Assembly: GCF_008326305.1 (NCBI RefSeq)
Contig: NZ_BIXY01000004.1
Span: 1-64,000, forward strand
Source of the DNA: Dictyobacter arantiisoli
GTDB taxonomy: Bacteria > Chloroflexota > Ktedonobacteria > Ktedonobacterales > Ktedonobacteraceae
Length of the DNA: 64,000 nt
Direction of reading: 5' to 3'
Shown: positions 2,740 to 14,628 of the stretch, in pieces
Position numbering within the stretch: position 1 is the stretch's first letter
Layout of the letters: each line of letters begins with the position of its first letter
Translations under genes and position numbers: made by a program
Notes under the pieces: generated by a model
What the model was told of the DNA's origin: nothing
Databases searched by the model: none
Seen by the model: only the letters and a program-made list of their open reading frames with translations

Positions 2740-3047
2740 CACCTACTCCAACAAATGGAGGTGAAGCAAGAACTCCCTGCCTGCTGACGGAGTCTGGGTA
2801 CGGATCCTGGCGTGTTTGCAAGCGTTTTTTTGGGGTGCACTACCATACCGCTTCATGAAGAGGAATGAAGGCGAGGGGAGCCATCCGTAGGAACCACCCT
2901 TTATGGGTGGAGGGCCACGACTTCCCGCCTGCACTGGTGGGGCTTTGGGGCGCAATGGCAATGCCCCTCCACCCGTGAAGGGTGGTTCCTACGGATGCAT
3001 CGGCGTTCCCCATGCTCCCTCTTTCCATTCATTTGTTGGAGTAGGTG
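2740..3047. mobile_element. MITE-like element, 308 bp, 18-bp TIR, 10-bp target duplication
   Basis: Ends are perfect 18-bp inverted repeats (CACCTACTCCAACAAATG at the left, its complement at the right). They are flanked by the direct repeat ATCTCAGCGG at 2730-2739 and 3048-3057, a clean target duplication. The interior has a second long inverted pair around CCGTAGGAACCACCC and its complement. No coding capacity. It sits in the leader of the flippase gene and supplies a spurious in-frame 5' extension of that gene. Confidence 0.85.
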
Positions 3048-3157
3048 ATCTCAGCGGCTCCTATATGTTGCTGCATACGCATCATTGGCTGGATATGTGC
3101 CAGGTGGGAGAGAATTCTTGTGGGTGGAATACGCAGCGGCTGGCGAGGATGGGGGAT

Positions 3158-4786
3158 ATGAAGAAGAGCTTTCCTTTGCCACAATCTTTGCTGACCAGCC
3201 AGCAGGATGCTGCTGATATTTCTACACTTGATACGTTGCCAATGATGGTGCTGAAAGGTATTGCCGGTCAGCAGGGTGATGCGGTGCCTGTCATGCGCTC
3301 TGAGCTTTCGGGAGCGGCTGGCGGCGCGGCCATTGTGGGTCTCGGCAATATTGTCGGCAGTATCCTTAAGTTTGGGAGTAACTATCTACTTCAGGTTGGC
3401 TTTGGAGCAGCTCTTTATGGCCTGTACTCGATCTGTTTTTCGATGGTACAATTGACGGCCTCGCTCTGTAATCTTGGCTTGAGCGATACCGTGATTCGCT
3501 ATACTGCGATCTACCAGCGGAAACGGCAGATCCACTCACTGGCTGGCTTACTGATGTTCTGTACCTGTATCGCTGGTCTCATGGGGCTGCTTGGTGGGCT
3601 CTGCATCTTTCGTTTTTCAACGCTCGTCGCCATCCTCAAACACGAGCCGCGACTGGCTCCTTTGCTGCAATTGATGGCTCCGCTGGTGCCTCTGCTCTGC
3701 TTGCAAAGCGTCTGGTTGGGATCATTACAGGGACTCAAGCTCTTTAAGTGGCGCGCGCTGGCGGAACGTATCATCGCTCCTGTCATCTTATTAGCTTTGA
3801 TTGTGCTCTTTTTCTGGTTGCGGCCTGGCCTATTCGCGGTTGCATGCGCCGTTATGCTAAGCACTCTGGCAGGCGCAGGTACCTGTGGTTATCTCCTGTA
3901 TCGGTCAGTCACAATCTCCCAACGTCGGAGGCGCAGCTACGAAATCCAGGAATGGATGAGTTTTGCTGTTTTCAACTTCCTGACCTCTGTTACCGAGGTG
4001 CTTCTTGAATCGATTGATACTCTGTTGTTGGTTGTGTTCGTTGTTACGGATATTCAGATCGGTCATTATAATGCTGCGGTGAAGATCAGTGATTTTATTG
4101 CGATGCCTTTATTCTCACTTAACACAATGTTTGCTCCAACTATCGCCGAACTTCATAGCCAGGGAGAGATGCGGCGTCTCGCTATGATGTATCAAATCGT
4201 TAACAAGTGGACGATTCTATTAAGCTTGCCCATTTTCTGCATCGCCTCCTTATTCGCGCAACCACTTCTGTTATTGTCAGGTCGCAGCTTCCTTGCTGCC
4301 TGGCCTCTCCTGGTCATTTCAGCTGTTGGCAGCATGATCAATGCAGGCACCGGCAGCGTTGGCTATGTACTATTAATGACCGGACATCAGAAAATCTCGT
4401 TTATTAACTCACTACTTTCCGTCTTGCTAAACATCGTGCTGGGCATATTACTTATCCCTCACTATGGGGCGATGGGTACCGCTATTGGAACAACTATGAC
4501 ACTATTGATCATCAACATTATACGCTATATCCAGGTGCGCAAGTTACTGCATTTCCAGCCCTATAACTGGCACATACTCAAGCCTCTGGGAGCAGGACTA
4601 TTCAGCGTTCTCTTTACTGGCAGCTTGCTTTTTGTGTGCGTCCACTGCAACCTGTTGATCCATCTTCTCTTGATCCCGGTATTTATGTTCAGCTATGTCG
4701 GTTGCCTGTTCCTATTCAAAAGTAGCCCCGACGATGCCATTGTGTTGGATGCTTTCCGGCAAAAGTTTCTGTACAGAAAAGCCTGA
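3158..4786 (+). CDS. Wzx-type oligosaccharide flippase
   Basis: About 542 residues with 12-14 hydrophobic segments, of the polysaccharide-synthesis branch of the MOP/MATE exporters (flippase plus C-terminal polysaccharide-biosynthesis domain). It would move lipid-linked glycan repeat units across the membrane for polymerisation. I chose the ATG at 3158 (MKKSFPLPQ), preceded by GGGGGAT; the frame stays open upstream to 2903 only because it runs into the inserted element at 2740-3047. It heads the polysaccharide locus and converges with the acetyltransferase at 4832. Confidence 0.85.
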   Translation: MKKSFPLPQSLLTSQQDAADISTLDTLPMMVLKGIAGQQGDAVPVMRSELSGAAGGAAIVGLGNIVGSILKFGSNYLLQVGFGAALYGLYSICFSMVQLTASLCNLGLSDTVIRYTAIYQRKRQIHSLAGLLMFCTCIAGLMGLLGGLCIFRFSTLVAILKHEPRLAPLLQLMAPLVPLLCLQSVWLGSLQGLKLFKWRALAERIIAPVILLALIVLFFWLRPGLFAVACAVMLSTLAGAGTCGYLLYRSVTISQRRRRSYEIQEWMSFAVFNFLTSVTEVLLESIDTLLLVVFVVTDIQIGHYNAAVKISDFIAMPLFSLNTMFAPTIAELHSQGEMRRLAMMYQIVNKWTILLSLPIFCIASLFAQPLLLLSGRSFLAAWPLLVISAVGSMINAGTGSVGYVLLMTGHQKISFINSLLSVLLNIVLGILLIPHYGAMGTAIGTTMTLLIINIIRYIQVRKLLHFQPYNWHILKPLGAGLFSVLFTGSLLFVCVHCNLLIHLLLIPVFMFSYVGCLFLFKSSPDDAIVLDAFRQKFLYRKA

Positions 4787-5649: not shown

Positions 5650-6753
5650 TTATGGTTGCCAGCTTGGATGTTGTTTGATAAAGTTTTGTAGGGCGTAAAA
5701 TGCGGGAAGTTGACCCTGTGGCTGCGTCAGGCTCATTCCATCGTTGCCACGATCTACGGTATACCAGAAGATATGCTGGATGACATGCGAGCGCATTGCG
5801 TCAGTTGCTGTTTTTATGATGTACTGAGCCTGCGTTTGTGGCGTGATAGTACAATGTGGATCTTGCTGTATCGCGCTCGTATTCCAGCCCACTTCGGTCA
5901 CCCAGATAGGTTTGGCTTGATCTTCATACGCTTGCATGACAGCATGTATGGTTTGCCACTCTTGATGAAAAGATGGACTATCTGCCTGCCCGACTGCTGG
6001 ATCTCTGGTACAGCTATAATAGTGGAAATTGGCGAAGTCAAAGTATTTTCCCTCATGATGTTGATATAACCACTGCATATAGTCTTTTATATGAGGACCA
6101 TTGACCCACCAGATACTATTCATCCCAACCTGCGCCTGCGGGGAGGCAGCCTTAATTGTTGGATAGGTGGCCTGTAGGATTGGTCCATAGTAATCTGGTA
6201 TGCGGCAGGCGATAGATTCACTCCAGTTGCCGGTCCAGAGGCTATCGAATTCCTCATTGCCGACCTCATAGCTCTCAATGTAGCCATGCCCACTCTTTCC
6301 ATTATAGCGTTGTGCCACGCTCTGTCCAAAGTTTGCCATTTCAGCGGGCCCTGGAAAGAGCAAACGTCCGGCACACATCTGGCGCAATGCCCAGGATGGC
6401 GCCGCCTGCAAGGGGAAAGTCATATGAATATGATTGTCATTCGCCAGTTTGACGGCGGCATCCAGGATCTCCCAATGATAGATATGTGGTTGAGGCTCGA
6501 TAGTGCTCCAATTCAATTGATAACGTATCCAATGTATATTGAGTTGTTTCAGATTTGTTATTGTTTGAGGACGAAAAGTCTGATAAACCGTGATGCCATA
6601 TGGATGATCCCATTGCATTATTTGTTGTTCTGATGGTCCAGAGAAGAGCCATTTTTCCAGTGTGAGTATTGCGAGCAGTAGTAATAGGCCGATCAGGAAG
6701 CATAGAGCGATGATTTTCCATCTGCGCATGGCTTGCTTGGATTTTTCTTTCAT
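5650..6753 (-). CDS. Membrane-anchored or secreted glycoside hydrolase (GH39/GH5-like TIM barrel)
   Basis: 367 residues: a short basic N-terminus, one membrane segment (about 12-34), then a clan GH-A type barrel. The likely acid/base glutamate is in EVGNEEFDSLW and the nucleophile in IWVTEVGWN. Similar hydrolases in exopolysaccharide loci (for example PslG) trim the glycan made by the same operon. The ATG overlaps the stop of the upstream glycosyltransferase by four bases (ATGA), so the two are translationally coupled. Confidence 0.75.
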   Translation of the reverse strand: MKEKSKQAMRRWKIIALCFLIGLLLLLAILTLEKWLFSGPSEQQIMQWDHPYGITVYQTFRPQTITNLKQLNIHWIRYQLNWSTIEPQPHIYHWEILDAAVKLANDNHIHMTFPLQAAPSWALRQMCAGRLLFPGPAEMANFGQSVAQRYNGKSGHGYIESYEVGNEEFDSLWTGNWSESIACRIPDYYGPILQATYPTIKAASPQAQVGMNSIWWVNGPHIKDYMQWLYQHHEGKYFDFANFHYYSCTRDPAVGQADSPSFHQEWQTIHAVMQAYEDQAKPIWVTEVGWNTSAIQQDPHCTITPQTQAQYIIKTATDAMRSHVIQHIFWYTVDRGNDGMSLTQPQGQLPAFYALQNFIKQHPSWQP

Positions 6754-7901
6754 GCCGTGGCTCCTTGAGATAAAGAGCTGTGTGCTTCGGCCCAGGCTTC
6801 TTCATAGACCTGTACGGTCGCTCTGGCACAGGTTTCGTAGTGGAATAATTGTGCCCGTTGACATCCCAGATGGATCAAGCGCTGGCGTAATGTGTGATCA
6901 CTTAGTATCAACAGAATAGCATCGGCTAATGACTGCGTATTAGTACAGTCGGCGTGTAGAACGGCATCGCCAGCGATTTCACTGCTGGCTGCCTCATAGC
7001 TGGCGACGACTGGAGTGCCACAGGCCATGGCTTCTAACGATGGCATCCCCTGTCCTTCATGTTTGGAGGGGAAGATCAGGGCGCTGGCCCCGGCGTAGAG
7101 GGCTCCCATCTTTTCATCCGCGACCCAACCTGCCAGATGGATGCGCTTATAATACAGCGAGGTTTCGATGAGTTGGAGCGCTCTTTCACTCCCATAGCCC
7201 ACGCCACCAGTTAATACAAGATGAAGATCCGGCAAACGTCCTGCCAGTAGATGAAACGCTTCAAGCAAGCGTTCGACATTTTTGCGCGGCATAATTCTTC
7301 CCACATGTAAGAGATAGCGTTGTCCGTAGCGGGCTTGCATGGCCTGGATGTCTGTTTTCATAATCGGGTTTTCGGTTAAGGATGGACGCAGGGCATGATG
7401 GATCAGGCGAATGCGGGCAGTGGGAATCGACCAATAGGTTGTGAGTTCCTCACAGGTCTGTTCTGAGATGGCGATTACACGCTGCGCACGCCGCGCTGCT
7501 GCCCGTTGTACGTACATATGATAGTAACGTGGATACCAGGATGACTGCTCTGGTACTTTCAAAAATGCGAGGTCATGGATGGTATTAACCAATGGACCAC
7601 GCCAGCTGAGCGGGGTCGCAAAGGCCGGGGTGTGCAACATATCCGGTTTCACTTTTTTGAGAATAGCAGGCATAAAAAGTTGATGCTGGATAAGGATACC
7701 GCGTCGAGATGGCAATCTTACCGCCTGCACATGCATCTGTGGGAACGCGAGTAGATCCTGATAATCTTCAGGACGGACTGTTAACACAATATATTCATTA
7801 GACTGATCAATGCGGGCCAGTCCTTGCAAGAGGGTACGCGCCGCCAGTAGCATACCGCCAGGCTCATACTCTGCAGCTACAACATCAATTGCTATACGCA
7901 T
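6750..7901 (-). CDS. Glycosyltransferase family 4
   Basis: About 383 residues, GT-B fold. N-terminal domain starts MRIAIDVVAAEYEPGG; the C-terminal donor domain has HVGRIMPRKNVERLLEAF and the GT4 EGQGMPSLEAMACGTPVVAS block (E-x7-E). It would transfer a sugar from a nucleotide donor to a lipid-linked glycan. Start chosen at 7901 because AGGAGG stands six bases before it; the frame remains open further upstream inside the neighbouring gene. It overlaps the end of the polymerase fusion gene by ten bases. Confidence 0.9.
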   Translation of the reverse strand: MRIAIDVVAAEYEPGGMLLAARTLLQGLARIDQSNEYIVLTVRPEDYQDLLAFPQMHVQAVRLPSRRGILIQHQLFMPAILKKVKPDMLHTPAFATPLSWRGPLVNTIHDLAFLKVPEQSSWYPRYYHMYVQRAAARRAQRVIAISEQTCEELTTYWSIPTARIRLIHHALRPSLTENPIMKTDIQAMQARYGQRYLLHVGRIMPRKNVERLLEAFHLLAGRLPDLHLVLTGGVGYGSERALQLIETSLYYKRIHLAGWVADEKMGALYAGASALIFPSKHEGQGMPSLEAMACGTPVVASYEAASSEIAGDAVLHADCTNTQSLADAILLILSDHTLRQRLIHLGCQRAQLFHYETCARATVQVYEEAWAEAHSSLSQGATA

Positions 7902-10822
7902 AAATCCTCCTGTCGGGCATACATGTTCTGGGAGATCTGTATCTCTGGTTGCGCGGGTCGTTGAGTATTGCTTAACGCTATTCCAGCGAGCAAGCACAGA
8001 AAGGAGCCGATTTCCACTGTATCGAACGGCACATCGAGACAACTGATGCTCATTGTGGCGCACACAGCCAGCATGGTGGCTAATAGCGGAAGACACGCTT
8101 CGGCCTGCCGTAAAGATGCAGCATTATACATGTGGCGATAAGCGTGCATGCAGGTAAAAAATAAGCTCAAGAAGAAGCCTACGCCGAGGATCAGCCAGAG
8201 TATACCGCTCTCCATCGCCCATTCAAGATACTGATTGTGGATGCTGATGCCATGCTCGTTCAGCTGGGTAGCCTGACTGATAATCAGGCGTTGATAGTAA
8301 TAATGAAATTGCTCCATACCGATCCCCAGGATTGGATGTGCAATGATGAGTTTGATAGCCTCATGCCATAAAAAGAGGCGATTGGTGGTGGAGGTGGCGG
8401 CGTGTGTGAACAGTGAAAAGATACCATCTCGAAAGATGATGAAGCCTCCTATGCTAAGGATGGCGACGCCAGCGAAAAGCTTGTAACGTCTGGTAAAGAT
8501 GAAGGCCAGACAGAGCATTGCTCCTGTGGCTGCCAGTGCGCTTCGCGTTCCCGATCCTACGATGACCAGTAACGTTCCCAGCGTCATGATTGCTCCGATG
8601 CGGCGATCCCGTCGCCGCTTGCTCAGTAACCAGCAGGATAGCGCGACAGCGAAGAGTCCGGTCATATAAATTCCCAATGTGGCTGCTCCATCAAAGGGAC
8701 CAACCAGGCGACCTTTGTCACCAGTTAAAGCTGGATTTGTATTGGTCACAAGAAAGATTGGGAGGGAGTATCCCATGGCCTGCAGCAGACAAATTCCATA
8801 CACAGGCAGGTTACTTAGCAGTACCAGCACAAAAAAGGTTGAGATACTGCGTATATATGGGGCTAAAAATGTACCGCAGAAGAGCGCTAACAGTAACAGG
8901 GCGAGATCGTAGACACGTTTATTGGCTCCGAAAATAATATTTCGGGTACTAAATTCTGGCACATGCAGAAATGAAATGAGAGCGATAGCGAAGAATAACA
9001 AGGCGTATACATGGGATATTTTAAGCTTACACGTGGGCCGAAAGAGCAGAATATAGCTCAGGCTCAGGTAGAGCACCAATTCGACTGGCCGTACTGTATG
9101 GCCGGGTATGGGCAATTGGAGTGCGGGTAGCCCTGCACACAGAAAGGCACCGAGCAGGACCAGCCAGGGACCCTGTATCCTCAACTTTTCCTTGTTTGGA
9201 TAGCTAGCGCCTTTTTCCACGCCGGGATCATTGTGCTGGTTGATGTAGAGATAGGATTGATGATGTGGTTTCTGACGGTTAATCACAACGCCTTGCACTG
9301 GTGAATAGAGCCGTTGGAGTATTTTACTGGCTTTTTGTAATGGTTTAGCCTGTTCTTTGCCCGCTTCAATGACGATAATTGCGCTATCTGTGCAGGAGGC
9401 CAGTGCCCCACAGTCAGGGCCGTCTTCCAGGGGTGCGGCATCAATAATAATGATATCGATCAACTGGACGGGATCGCTATCGAACGTCATTGACGGAGGT
9501 TGTACCAGGCATTTCAGGAAGATGGGTAATCCTGGCGTGCGCAGGATGCTGGCTTTTTGTTTTGGCAATGGTCCCGTGGGCAAGAACCAGAGATTAGCAA
9601 TGGATGTTTTCTGTTGATTGAGCCAATGCGCAACGTTAGCATTTGGTCCTTCCTGAAAAAGTTCGCTCTCGGTCAATACGTTGGTCAGGCCATAGTTGTT
9701 AGGATGTTTGAAGATACTATGGAGCGTGCCGCGTTTCAAGTTCCCATCAATCAGGAGCACCCGCGAACCCGTTCGGGCCAGCGCAAGGGCTAGATTGATC
9801 GCGGTGGTAGAGGTACCTGCGCGTGGACTGAGGCTTGTGACCAGTAACGCGTGGGCCTCGCTATATCTCATCGCCAGGTTGGTGCTGATGGTGGAGAATG
9901 CCTGCTCGACAGGTTCAATATTCACTAATGGGAGCTGGTCATGTGTTTTTTTCTCGCCCTCTTTTACACATGGTATGCTACCCAGAGCGGAGAGCTGGGC
10001 CAGAGCTTCCACATCATCCACTGTTTTAATCGTTGTATTCATCCAATCCCACACAAGCACAAATACGACCATCATCAGCAGGCTCAAGGCTGCGGCAGCC
10101 AGCGTATTCAGCACTATCCTGGGACTGACAGGAGTGGTTGGTGGGGTTGCCATTTGCACAATCGTCAGGATATTCCCGCTCTGCAATAGTTGCTGTTGAA
10201 TTTGATTATAGCTTGTTTGGAGCGCATTATAATTGATTTGATGCGCTGTAATCGTATCATTCTGTTGGGCGATACGCGCTGCTGAGGCATGCAGCGTTTG
10301 TAAATTGATAAGCTGCTCTTGAGCGTTGTCCTCCTGCTGTTTGGCATCCTGTACGCTTCTGGCTATTTTACGCGCTTCTATTTTGAGCTGTTGGGTAATA
10401 TGCGTATTTTGCAATTGAATGAAGGTGGTCACAACAGTGTTAGCGAGGCGGGTCGCCTGCGTGGGACTCTCGGCAAGGGCACATACCTGAATGATAGGGG
10501 TATTATTTAATGGGGAGTCGCTGACTTGTTTCTGGAGTTGTTGTACCGTGATGGCTGGTATTTTTTGCGTTACCGCCTGCAACACATCGGGTCGATTGAT
10601 TAAGAGGGCTTCGCTCTGTGCCAGCGCCTGATCGCTGAAGATATTGCTACCATTTGTGCTGGCATCATGAACTTCTAATAAGGCAGTTGCTTCATAGACC
10701 GGCACCATAAAATAATTGATGACATAGGTTGTTCCCGTACAGAGTAAGACCACCAGGCCAATCAGCCAGAAGTACCTGTAGAGTAATGTTGCATAGTGTC
10801 CGATACTGGTTCCTCGATACAT
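7892..10822 (-). CDS. Fusion protein: Wzz chain-length domain, BY-kinase-like ATPase and O-antigen ligase/polymerase
   Basis: A single 976-residue frame. Residues 1-265: Wzz domain with membrane segments near 18-38 and 240-262 and a coiled coil between. About 270-520: CpsD/CapB-like ATPase, LLVTSLSPRAGTSTTAINLA for Walker A, LLIDGNLKRG for Walker A', IIIIDAAPLED for Walker B. The Walker A lysine position is threonine and the A' second aspartate is asparagine, so kinase activity is doubtful. About 545-965: a multi-spanning O-antigen ligase/Wzy-like domain. It would couple polymerisation and length control at the membrane. Joining all three in one chain is unusual. The downstream glycosyltransferase overlaps it. 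Confidence 0.85.
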   Translation of the reverse strand: MYRGTSIGHYATLLYRYFWLIGLVVLLCTGTTYVINYFMVPVYEATALLEVHDASTNGSNIFSDQALAQSEALLINRPDVLQAVTQKIPAITVQQLQKQVSDSPLNNTPIIQVCALAESPTQATRLANTVVTTFIQLQNTHITQQLKIEARKIARSVQDAKQQEDNAQEQLINLQTLHASAARIAQQNDTITAHQINYNALQTSYNQIQQQLLQSGNILTIVQMATPPTTPVSPRIVLNTLAAAALSLLMMVVFVLVWDWMNTTIKTVDDVEALAQLSALGSIPCVKEGEKKTHDQLPLVNIEPVEQAFSTISTNLAMRYSEAHALLVTSLSPRAGTSTTAINLALALARTGSRVLLIDGNLKRGTLHSIFKHPNNYGLTNVLTESELFQEGPNANVAHWLNQQKTSIANLWFLPTGPLPKQKASILRTPGLPIFLKCLVQPPSMTFDSDPVQLIDIIIIDAAPLEDGPDCGALASCTDSAIIVIEAGKEQAKPLQKASKILQRLYSPVQGVVINRQKPHHQSYLYINQHNDPGVEKGASYPNKEKLRIQGPWLVLLGAFLCAGLPALQLPIPGHTVRPVELVLYLSLSYILLFRPTCKLKISHVYALLFFAIALISFLHVPEFSTRNIIFGANKRVYDLALLLLALFCGTFLAPYIRSISTFFVLVLLSNLPVYGICLLQAMGYSLPIFLVTNTNPALTGDKGRLVGPFDGAATLGIYMTGLFAVALSCWLLSKRRRDRRIGAIMTLGTLLVIVGSGTRSALAATGAMLCLAFIFTRRYKLFAGVAILSIGGFIIFRDGIFSLFTHAATSTTNRLFLWHEAIKLIIAHPILGIGMEQFHYYYQRLIISQATQLNEHGISIHNQYLEWAMESGILWLILGVGFFLSLFFTCMHAYRHMYNAASLRQAEACLPLLATMLAVCATMSISCLDVPFDTVEIGSFLCLLAGIALSNTQRPAQPEIQISQNMYARQEDLCV

Positions 10823-13929: not shown

Positions 13930-14628
13930 ATGAACCAGACGGAGAAATACAGAGCGTCTCAGATTGAGTTTGAGCATACTTCTCCCCTCCTGGATGATGT
14001 CTGTCCTGATATTATCCGGCATCCTTCGCGCTTTTTTTTCCTGACCAAGCGTTGTATCGATGTGCTCGGGGCCGCGCTTGCTTTGTGTCTCTTTTTTCCT
14101 CTACTGATACTGATCGCGCTTTCGATAAAACTTGATGATGGTGGCCCGGTTCTACACTTGCGTGAGATTGTTGGCCTCAATGGGAAACACTTTTTTGCGC
14201 TAAAGTTCCGCACCATGATCCTGGACGCCGACGAGTATTTACAGCGCCATCCTGATTTGCTGCAACTTTATCAAAAAAATATGAAGCTGATGCATGATCC
14301 CCGCGTCACACAGATCGGTCACTTTCTGCGTAAGACTAGCCTGGATGAACTGCCCCAGCTAGTCAATGTATTGCTGGGGCAAATGTCTCTGGTTGGACCT
14401 CGTATGATCCATCCTGACGAACTGGTTCGCTATGGTCACTATGCCAATAAGCGTTTATCTGTGAAGCCTGGCATGACTGGCTTATGGCAGATTTGCTGTC
14501 GTTGGTACACTTCATATGATGCCCGTATTGTATTTGATATGCATTATATTGATACAAGAACACTATTACTGGATCTATACATTTTATGCAAGACAGTAAA
14601 AGTGTTTATAGTACATACTGGAGCATGA
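13930..14628 (+). CDS. Initiating sugar-phosphate transferase (bacterial sugar transferase family)
   Basis: 232 residues. One membrane segment (about 42-62) followed by the catalytic domain: [40 protein letters not shown] and MSLVGPRMI. These match the PglC/WbaP core, which moves a sugar phosphate from a nucleotide sugar to undecaprenyl phosphate and starts the repeat unit. The extra N-terminal four-helix domain of WbaP-type enzymes is missing, so it resembles the small monotopic forms. Confidence 0.9.

Follow-up and report, generated by a model that had tools for sequence, protein, structure and literature searches.

The way in which polysaccharide co-polymerases (PCPs) of the Wzz/Wzc type set the length of a chain is not settled, nor is the position of the polymerase Wzy in their ring. 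In Wzc of E. coli (PCP-2a), a Wzz-type N-terminus, two membrane helices and a kinase fold are found on a single chain, which is an active autokinase with a tyrosine-rich tail; Wzc mutated at the Walker A lysine is octameric, and phosphorylation dissociates the octamers (PMC8285477, PMC11986026). In the EcpK/EpsV system of Myxococcus xanthus and the HfsB/HfsA system of Caulobacter crescentus, the kinase fold lacks the catalytic motifs and the tyrosine tail, and EcpK and HfsB, as described in the excerpt of PMC12004946 used here, are bacterial tyrosine kinase (BY-kinase) pseudokinases, separate proteins proposed to be scaffolds that support the co-polymerases. The same excerpt cites single-chain variants, e.g., SMc01795 of S. 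meliloti, and contains no mention of a fusion to the polymerase. The length regulator and the polymerase of Pectobacterium atrosepticum are physically associated as two proteins, about eight WzzE surrounding one WzyE in the membrane lumen (cavity) of the ring, with the kinase domain absent (PMC10030265). WadA, an O-antigen ligase joined to a GT25 domain, is a precedent for a member of this ligase family sharing a chain with another enzyme of the pathway (PMC10920833), the partner there being other than a Wzz-kinase. Here, we consider a gene of Dictyobacter arantiisoli that joins Wzz, a kinase-like domain and Wzy in one protein, located in a stretch of 64,000 nucleotides (contig NZ_BIXY01000004.1, positions 1 to 64,000; hereafter the window).

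The minus strand of the window, read from 10822 to 7892, holds an open frame of 976 codons with no internal stop, while the plus strand has stops throughout the same coordinates. The initial annotation had placed a three-part fusion of length regulator, tyrosine-kinase-like ATPase and polymerase or ligase at these positions, correctly and with no strand stated, and had suggested a domain search; the stop-free frame and the Pfam and NCBIfam domains found by that search confirm that the 976-residue frame is genuine. Its features are the following (helices and disorder from AlphaFold2, AF2; pLDDT, predicted local distance difference test).

7892..10822, minus strand: fused gene, Wzz + putative BY-pseudokinase + Wzy, 976 residues (open frame; Pfam; NCBIfam)
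10562..10786, minus strand: Wzz domain, residues 13-87, with the first membrane helix (TM1, about 18-37) within it (PF02706, E 8e-7; AF2 helix 18-37)
10034..10117, minus strand: second membrane helix of the Wzz part, residues 236-263 (AF2 helix 236-263; TM2 of relatives in the alignment)
9245..9901, minus strand: BY-kinase-like domain, residues 308-526 (TIGR01007, eps_fam, E 9e-29; Foldseek matches to CapAB and Wzc)
9803..9829, minus strand: degenerate Walker A, SPRAGTSTT, residues 332-340, with Thr337 at the lysine position (alignment)
9728..9760, minus strand: Walker A', VLLIDGNLKRG, residues 355-365, with Asn for the second Asp (alignment)
9422..9454, minus strand: Walker B, IIIIDAAPLED, residues 457-467, Asp retained (alignment)
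9173..9277, minus strand: linker, residues 516-550, predicted to be disordered; it stands where relatives have the kinase tail and the polymerase N-terminus (AF2 pLDDT 30-40; alignment)
9155..9205, minus strand: fusion junction, breakpoint within about residues 540-556 (alignment with relatives)
7964..9172, minus strand: Wzy/WaaL-like membrane polymerase, residues 551-953 (match to WaaL 7tpg, E 1.8e-6)
8189..8584, minus strand: Wzy_C domain with external loop, residues 747-878; Arg815 and His862 invariant (PF04932)

The N-terminal half has the properties of a PCP-2 co-polymerase of the Wzc/CapAB type, namely PF02706 above its cut-off, membrane helices flanking an external domain and a cytoplasmic BY-kinase fold, although the NCBIfam model of this kinase scores 100.4 bits on residues 308-526, slightly under its cut-off of 108. 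The C-terminal half has those of the Wzy/O-antigen ligase family, i.e., Wzy_C (E 3e-19, 69.8 bits versus a cut-off of 31.7), about 12 helices, and conserved Arg and His around the external loop. Since either half has homologues at 50-65% identity, the domain assignments are no chance effect. Relative to Wzc, the lysine and the tail are gone, the periplasmic part is shorter and a polymerase is fused on; unlike a stand-alone pseudokinase that binds a partner PCP, the kinase-like domain shares its chain with Wzz. The families are thus known ones, and the observation of their combination, which we did not find described, is confirmed in a single genome. We consider it probable that the protein is a natural co-polymerase-polymerase fusion belonging to a Wzx/Wzy-type pathway for exopolysaccharide, phosphorylation-independent and tethered by a linker.

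In the kinase-like domain, the lysine of the GxGKS/T motif of active BY-kinases is replaced by Thr337 (RAGTST), and the second Asp of Walker A' by Asn (DGN instead of DAD, in LLIDGNLKRG). The tyrosine-rich C-terminal tail is also missing: residues 505-553 contain four tyrosines, with no cluster resembling the YSYYYYYH of a lysine-bearing relative. The fold is kept, with a Foldseek TM-score to CapAB of 0.76-0.77 (of the target) and E values to Wzc down to 8e-21. The two replacements given by the initial annotation (RAGTSTT and Asn for Asp) are thus borne out by the alignment, and its reading of a pseudo-kinase appears well founded, as a domain without the lysine, the second Asp and the tail is presumably non-catalytic.

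In a kinase tree computed minus the motif columns, 14 out of 14 lysine-less proteins around that of the window fall into one clade (support 100/100), with Thr, Asn or Val at the lysine position and, for the most part, the second A' Asp lost as well. As in BY-pseudokinase co-polymerases, a BY-kinase fold that has lost catalytic motifs persists throughout this 14-member clade. Kinases of other clades from the same genomes retain GKS/T, and the sister BY-kinases of the window's own genome retain GKST. The clade takes in stand-alone paralogues (C3 of the own genome, C1 of G006, and one in G007) and also a protein of the same genus (G005) that has no Wzy adjoining. Because the lysine loss is common to a clade with non-fused members, it predates the fusion and is independent of it, as judged from the tree. 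The idea that the pseudo-kinase state is an adaptation tied to the fusion, coupling length control to polymerisation, a link that the initial annotation had raised as a possibility, is contradicted by these members. By analogy with the octamers of the Wzc lysine mutants and with the scaffold pseudokinases, the lysine-less domain is expected to favour a stable ring. The clade would add evidence, from a Gram-stain-positive lineage, that co-polymerases can act without tyrosine phosphorylation.

Lysine-less stand-alone Wzz-kinases that end in REQLT and have no Wzy adjoining are found in three genomes of the genus (L046:6473-8518, minus strand; L047:7478-9517, plus strand; L017:1177-3108, minus strand), where the pseudokinase co-polymerase occurs in another conserved setting.

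The origin of the fusion can be approached through the relatives that carry this polymerase, in which the Wzz-kinase and Wzy are separate adjacent genes without exception (9/9). In the closest, Dictyobacter kobayashii Uno11 (G006), the order of the locus is that of the window (flippase, glycoside hydrolase, GT4 glycosyltransferase, Wzy, Wzz-kinase, divergent GT4); the Wzz-kinase and Wzy genes lie 4 nt apart, and their products are 53% and 65% identical to the respective halves. In the eight others (Ktedonobacter racemifer, K. robiniae, K. sp. SOSP1-85, Ktedonospora formicarum, Tengunoibacter tsumagoiensis and three metagenome-assembled genomes), seven gaps range between -32 and +5 nt, and the remaining one measures +57 nt. 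When the proteins are aligned, that of the window is seen to lack the C-terminal ~55 residues of the Wzz-kinase and ~70-75 at the start of Wzy, which amounts to about 0.36-0.40 kb relative to D. kobayashii. With about 130 residues missing at the junction, a single-base sequencing error is excluded as the cause, and a missed stop or a frameshift is rejected as well. A CCTGG microhomology at the breakpoint was dropped since the frames disagree. The comparison indicates that this is a lineage-specific fusion, formed by deletion of that stretch between two tightly adjacent ancestral genes. The initial annotation had regarded separate genes in all close relatives as an argument against a fusion; separate they are, and the pattern points to a lineage-specific deletion and not to a missed stop or frameshift.

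Mis-assembly, unlike a single-base error, could give the missing stretch if the draft, which has 7,209,578 bases in 256 contigs, had dropped it and joined the two genes in frame by chance. Such an artefact would agree with the two genes of every relative and with the lack of this architecture in any other genome searched, but we consider it quite unlikely. The join needs to be in frame and stop-free (the frame alone comes out right about 1 time in 3), the junction lies internally in a 140-kb contig, the codon-position composition is even along the fused gene, and what remains of the polymerase appears to be a complete core.

The last point rests on a model of residues 544-976 alone (predicted TM-score, pTM, 0.79), the sole significant PDB match of which is the O-antigen ligase WaaL (7tpg, TM-score 0.56/0.59), with 442 alignment columns versus 403 residues and the whole of WaaL covered. 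The columns invariant in seven relatives are kept, Arg815 and His862 among them; a conserved Arg and His are shared with WaaL and the PF04932 polymerases. AF2 predicts nine helices ahead of the large loop and three behind it, and this loop would be outside provided that the kinase domain is inside. The difference from WaaL and these polymerases is that the Wzy of the window sits behind a co-polymerase, without two extra N-terminal helices that its own relatives have. The half that remains can thus be regarded, on the strength of the model, as a complete WaaL-like core.

PF04932 covers polymerases as well as ligases, and both the name of this Pfam family and the best structural match, an O-antigen ligase, would fit an alternative function in which the C-terminal half links the chain to an acceptor on the cell surface. 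We find this very unlikely, as the gene is the only one of its kind found in the locus and is paired with Wzz; moreover, Dictyobacter species are Gram-stain-positive (PMC12453558), and no lipopolysaccharide is therefore expected.

It is also conceivable that the deletion is real and the system is decaying, the protein being made but no longer polymerising, with other Wzy systems of the genome as substitutes. The genome encodes four other Wzy_C proteins, and in three cases a Wzz-kinase lies close by on the contig concerned; the two lost helices are conserved ones. To this scenario, we assign only a small probability. The changes found only in the window number 25-38 in the Wzy half, versus 27-34 found only in D. 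kobayashii (six outgroups), so that this half is not clearly faster-changing and shows no sign of decay; there is no stop or frameshift, the invariant polymerase residues are retained, and the coupled GT4 and glycoside-hydrolase genes are intact.

For the fused co-polymerase-polymerase that we prefer, the following mechanism can be envisaged. An ancestral pair of a lysine-less Wzz-kinase gene followed tightly by Wzy became one frame by losing about 0.36-0.40 kb, which encoded the tail of the kinase and membrane helices one and two of Wzy. The number of helices removed being even, the catalytic loop of Wzy would stay on the outer face. The Wzz part would retain the oligomeric membrane ring, the kinase-like domain would act as a non-catalytic cytoplasmic module for oligomerisation and scaffolding, and the flexible cytoplasmic linker of about 35 residues (516-550) would keep Wzy beside the ring. 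The chain length would then be set without phosphorylation-driven disassembly of the ring, and the regulator and the polymerase would be synthesised in a 1:1 ratio.

Several points weigh against this proposal. The fixed 1:1 ratio conflicts with that of about 8:1 in the one measured Wzz:Wzy complex (PMC10030265); Wzy has lost two N-terminal membrane helices that each of the seven aligned relatives retains; just one genome, a 256-contig draft, shows the fusion; and the AF2 model of the full fusion has a low overall confidence (pTM 0.48) and does not fix the arrangement of the domains. The conflict in stoichiometry would be relieved if surplus polymerases stayed outside the ring, if the ring were smaller or of mixed subunits, or if the chain were cut or internally initiated. 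That the protein works as a kinase-independent, all-in-one length-controlled polymerase locked at 1:1, so that a ring around one Wzy (about 8:1) is not obligatory, we regard as possible and rather doubtful.

In the last of the three options, cleavage of the linker or an internal start, e.g., at a TTG after AAGGA in the junction, would release free Wzy in addition to the Wzz-kinase, in unequal amounts. The predicted disorder of the linker, the presence of AAGGAAAAGTTG within the junction sequence and the ratio of about 8:1 measured elsewhere (PMC10030265) are all in line with function as separate chains. However, a Shine-Dalgarno-like site so short is often expected by chance, and we deem the explanation distinctly improbable. 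As one chain, the fusion is a naturally occurring covalent tether that fixes the stoichiometry; it could serve as a ready-made construct for structural work.

A survey of the Ktedonobacteria, as proposed in the initial annotation, was carried out on 47 genomes of the class, and the Wzz + kinase + Wzy architecture is present only in that of the window (1/47). No second fusion beyond the class is seen among the best matches listed in the phylum-level searches, no plasmid record covers 80% of the fused-protein query, and a pattern scan of genome contigs with the same query gave no relative. The phrases tried in the literature, in a collection that is incomplete, gave no match for the three-part fusion. 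Some candidates were rejected: a reported 1729-aa open frame in G001 has three stops between two genes on direct translation; G017 12-609 has one TAA inside, the genes being separate; and the 977-aa frame with Wzz in G217 is an ordinary GKT kinase with a long GC-rich, probably spurious N-terminal extension and no Wzy. Nine long Chloroflexota Wzy frames (900-1250 aa) were scanned as well: all of them lack both Wzz and a kinase, and seven have weak glycoside-hydrolase- or esterase-like matches N-terminally.

The fused gene is the first of a minus-strand gene set in the window, which has a GC content of 48.7%. The coupling to flanking genes by overlaps, claimed in the initial annotation, holds on the 3' side (10 nt, then 4 nt) and fails on the other, where the upstream gene (11235, plus strand) is divergent. 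The neighbours are as follows.

6750..7901, minus strand: GT4 glycosyltransferase, 10-nt overlap with the 3' end of the fused gene (ATG at 7901; AGGAGG just upstream)
5650..6753, minus strand: membrane-anchored glycoside-hydrolase-like protein, 4-nt overlap with the GT4 gene (PF11790)
2903..4786, plus strand: Wzx flippase, a separate gene (PF01943)
13930..14628, plus strand: initiating sugar-phosphate transferase, Bac_transf (PF02397, E 2e-57)

Additional GT4 enzymes are encoded near the fused gene and, together with the flippase and the initiating transferase, constitute genes of a Wzx/Wzy pathway.

Other fusions of Wzy are found in the class. In eight Ktedonobacteria genomes, Ktedonobacter and relatives, single Wzy-Wzx proteins of 1015-1065 aa are encoded immediately after a lysine-less Wzz-kinase gene of the same type as that of the window. 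Their Wzy is homologous (38-50% identity), but the flippase is joined at its C-terminus, whereas in the window Wzz is joined at the N-terminus; Pfam, run on L042, gives PF04932 and then PF01943. This conserved fusion is arguably more notable than that of the window. The genes are:

L042:4020-7190, minus strand
L036:7231-10278, plus strand
L039:5226-8279, minus strand
L040:4280-7345, plus strand
L041:4966-8163, minus strand
L043:4370-7540, minus strand
L044:5093-8269, minus strand
L045:8280-11450, plus strand

The own genome also encodes, on contig C20, a fusion of a MurJ-type flippase and Wzy of 980 aa (L056:6764-9706, plus strand; PF03023 + PF04932), and a 981-aa frame of another genus (L055:4058-7003, plus strand) resembles it in its ends and setting. 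That Wzy has repeatedly been fused to a partner in Ktedonobacteria, be it Wzx, MurJ or the Wzz-kinase, points to direct contacts among these proteins.

A Wzz-kinase of 890 aa in G008 carries a C-terminal alpha/beta-hydrolase domain, and similar ends are seen in two other genomes of the genus (the set comprises L048:7046-9718, plus strand; L053:5760-8180, minus strand; and L054:5255-7405, minus strand). Finally, Chloroflexota Wzy_C proteins of ~900-1250 aa (L098-L117) have one N-terminal helix and, ahead of the polymerase, a several-hundred-residue external domain with a weak likeness to glycoside hydrolases or CE2_N, which is comparable with the membrane-anchored glycoside-hydrolase gene beside Wzy in the window (5650-6753).

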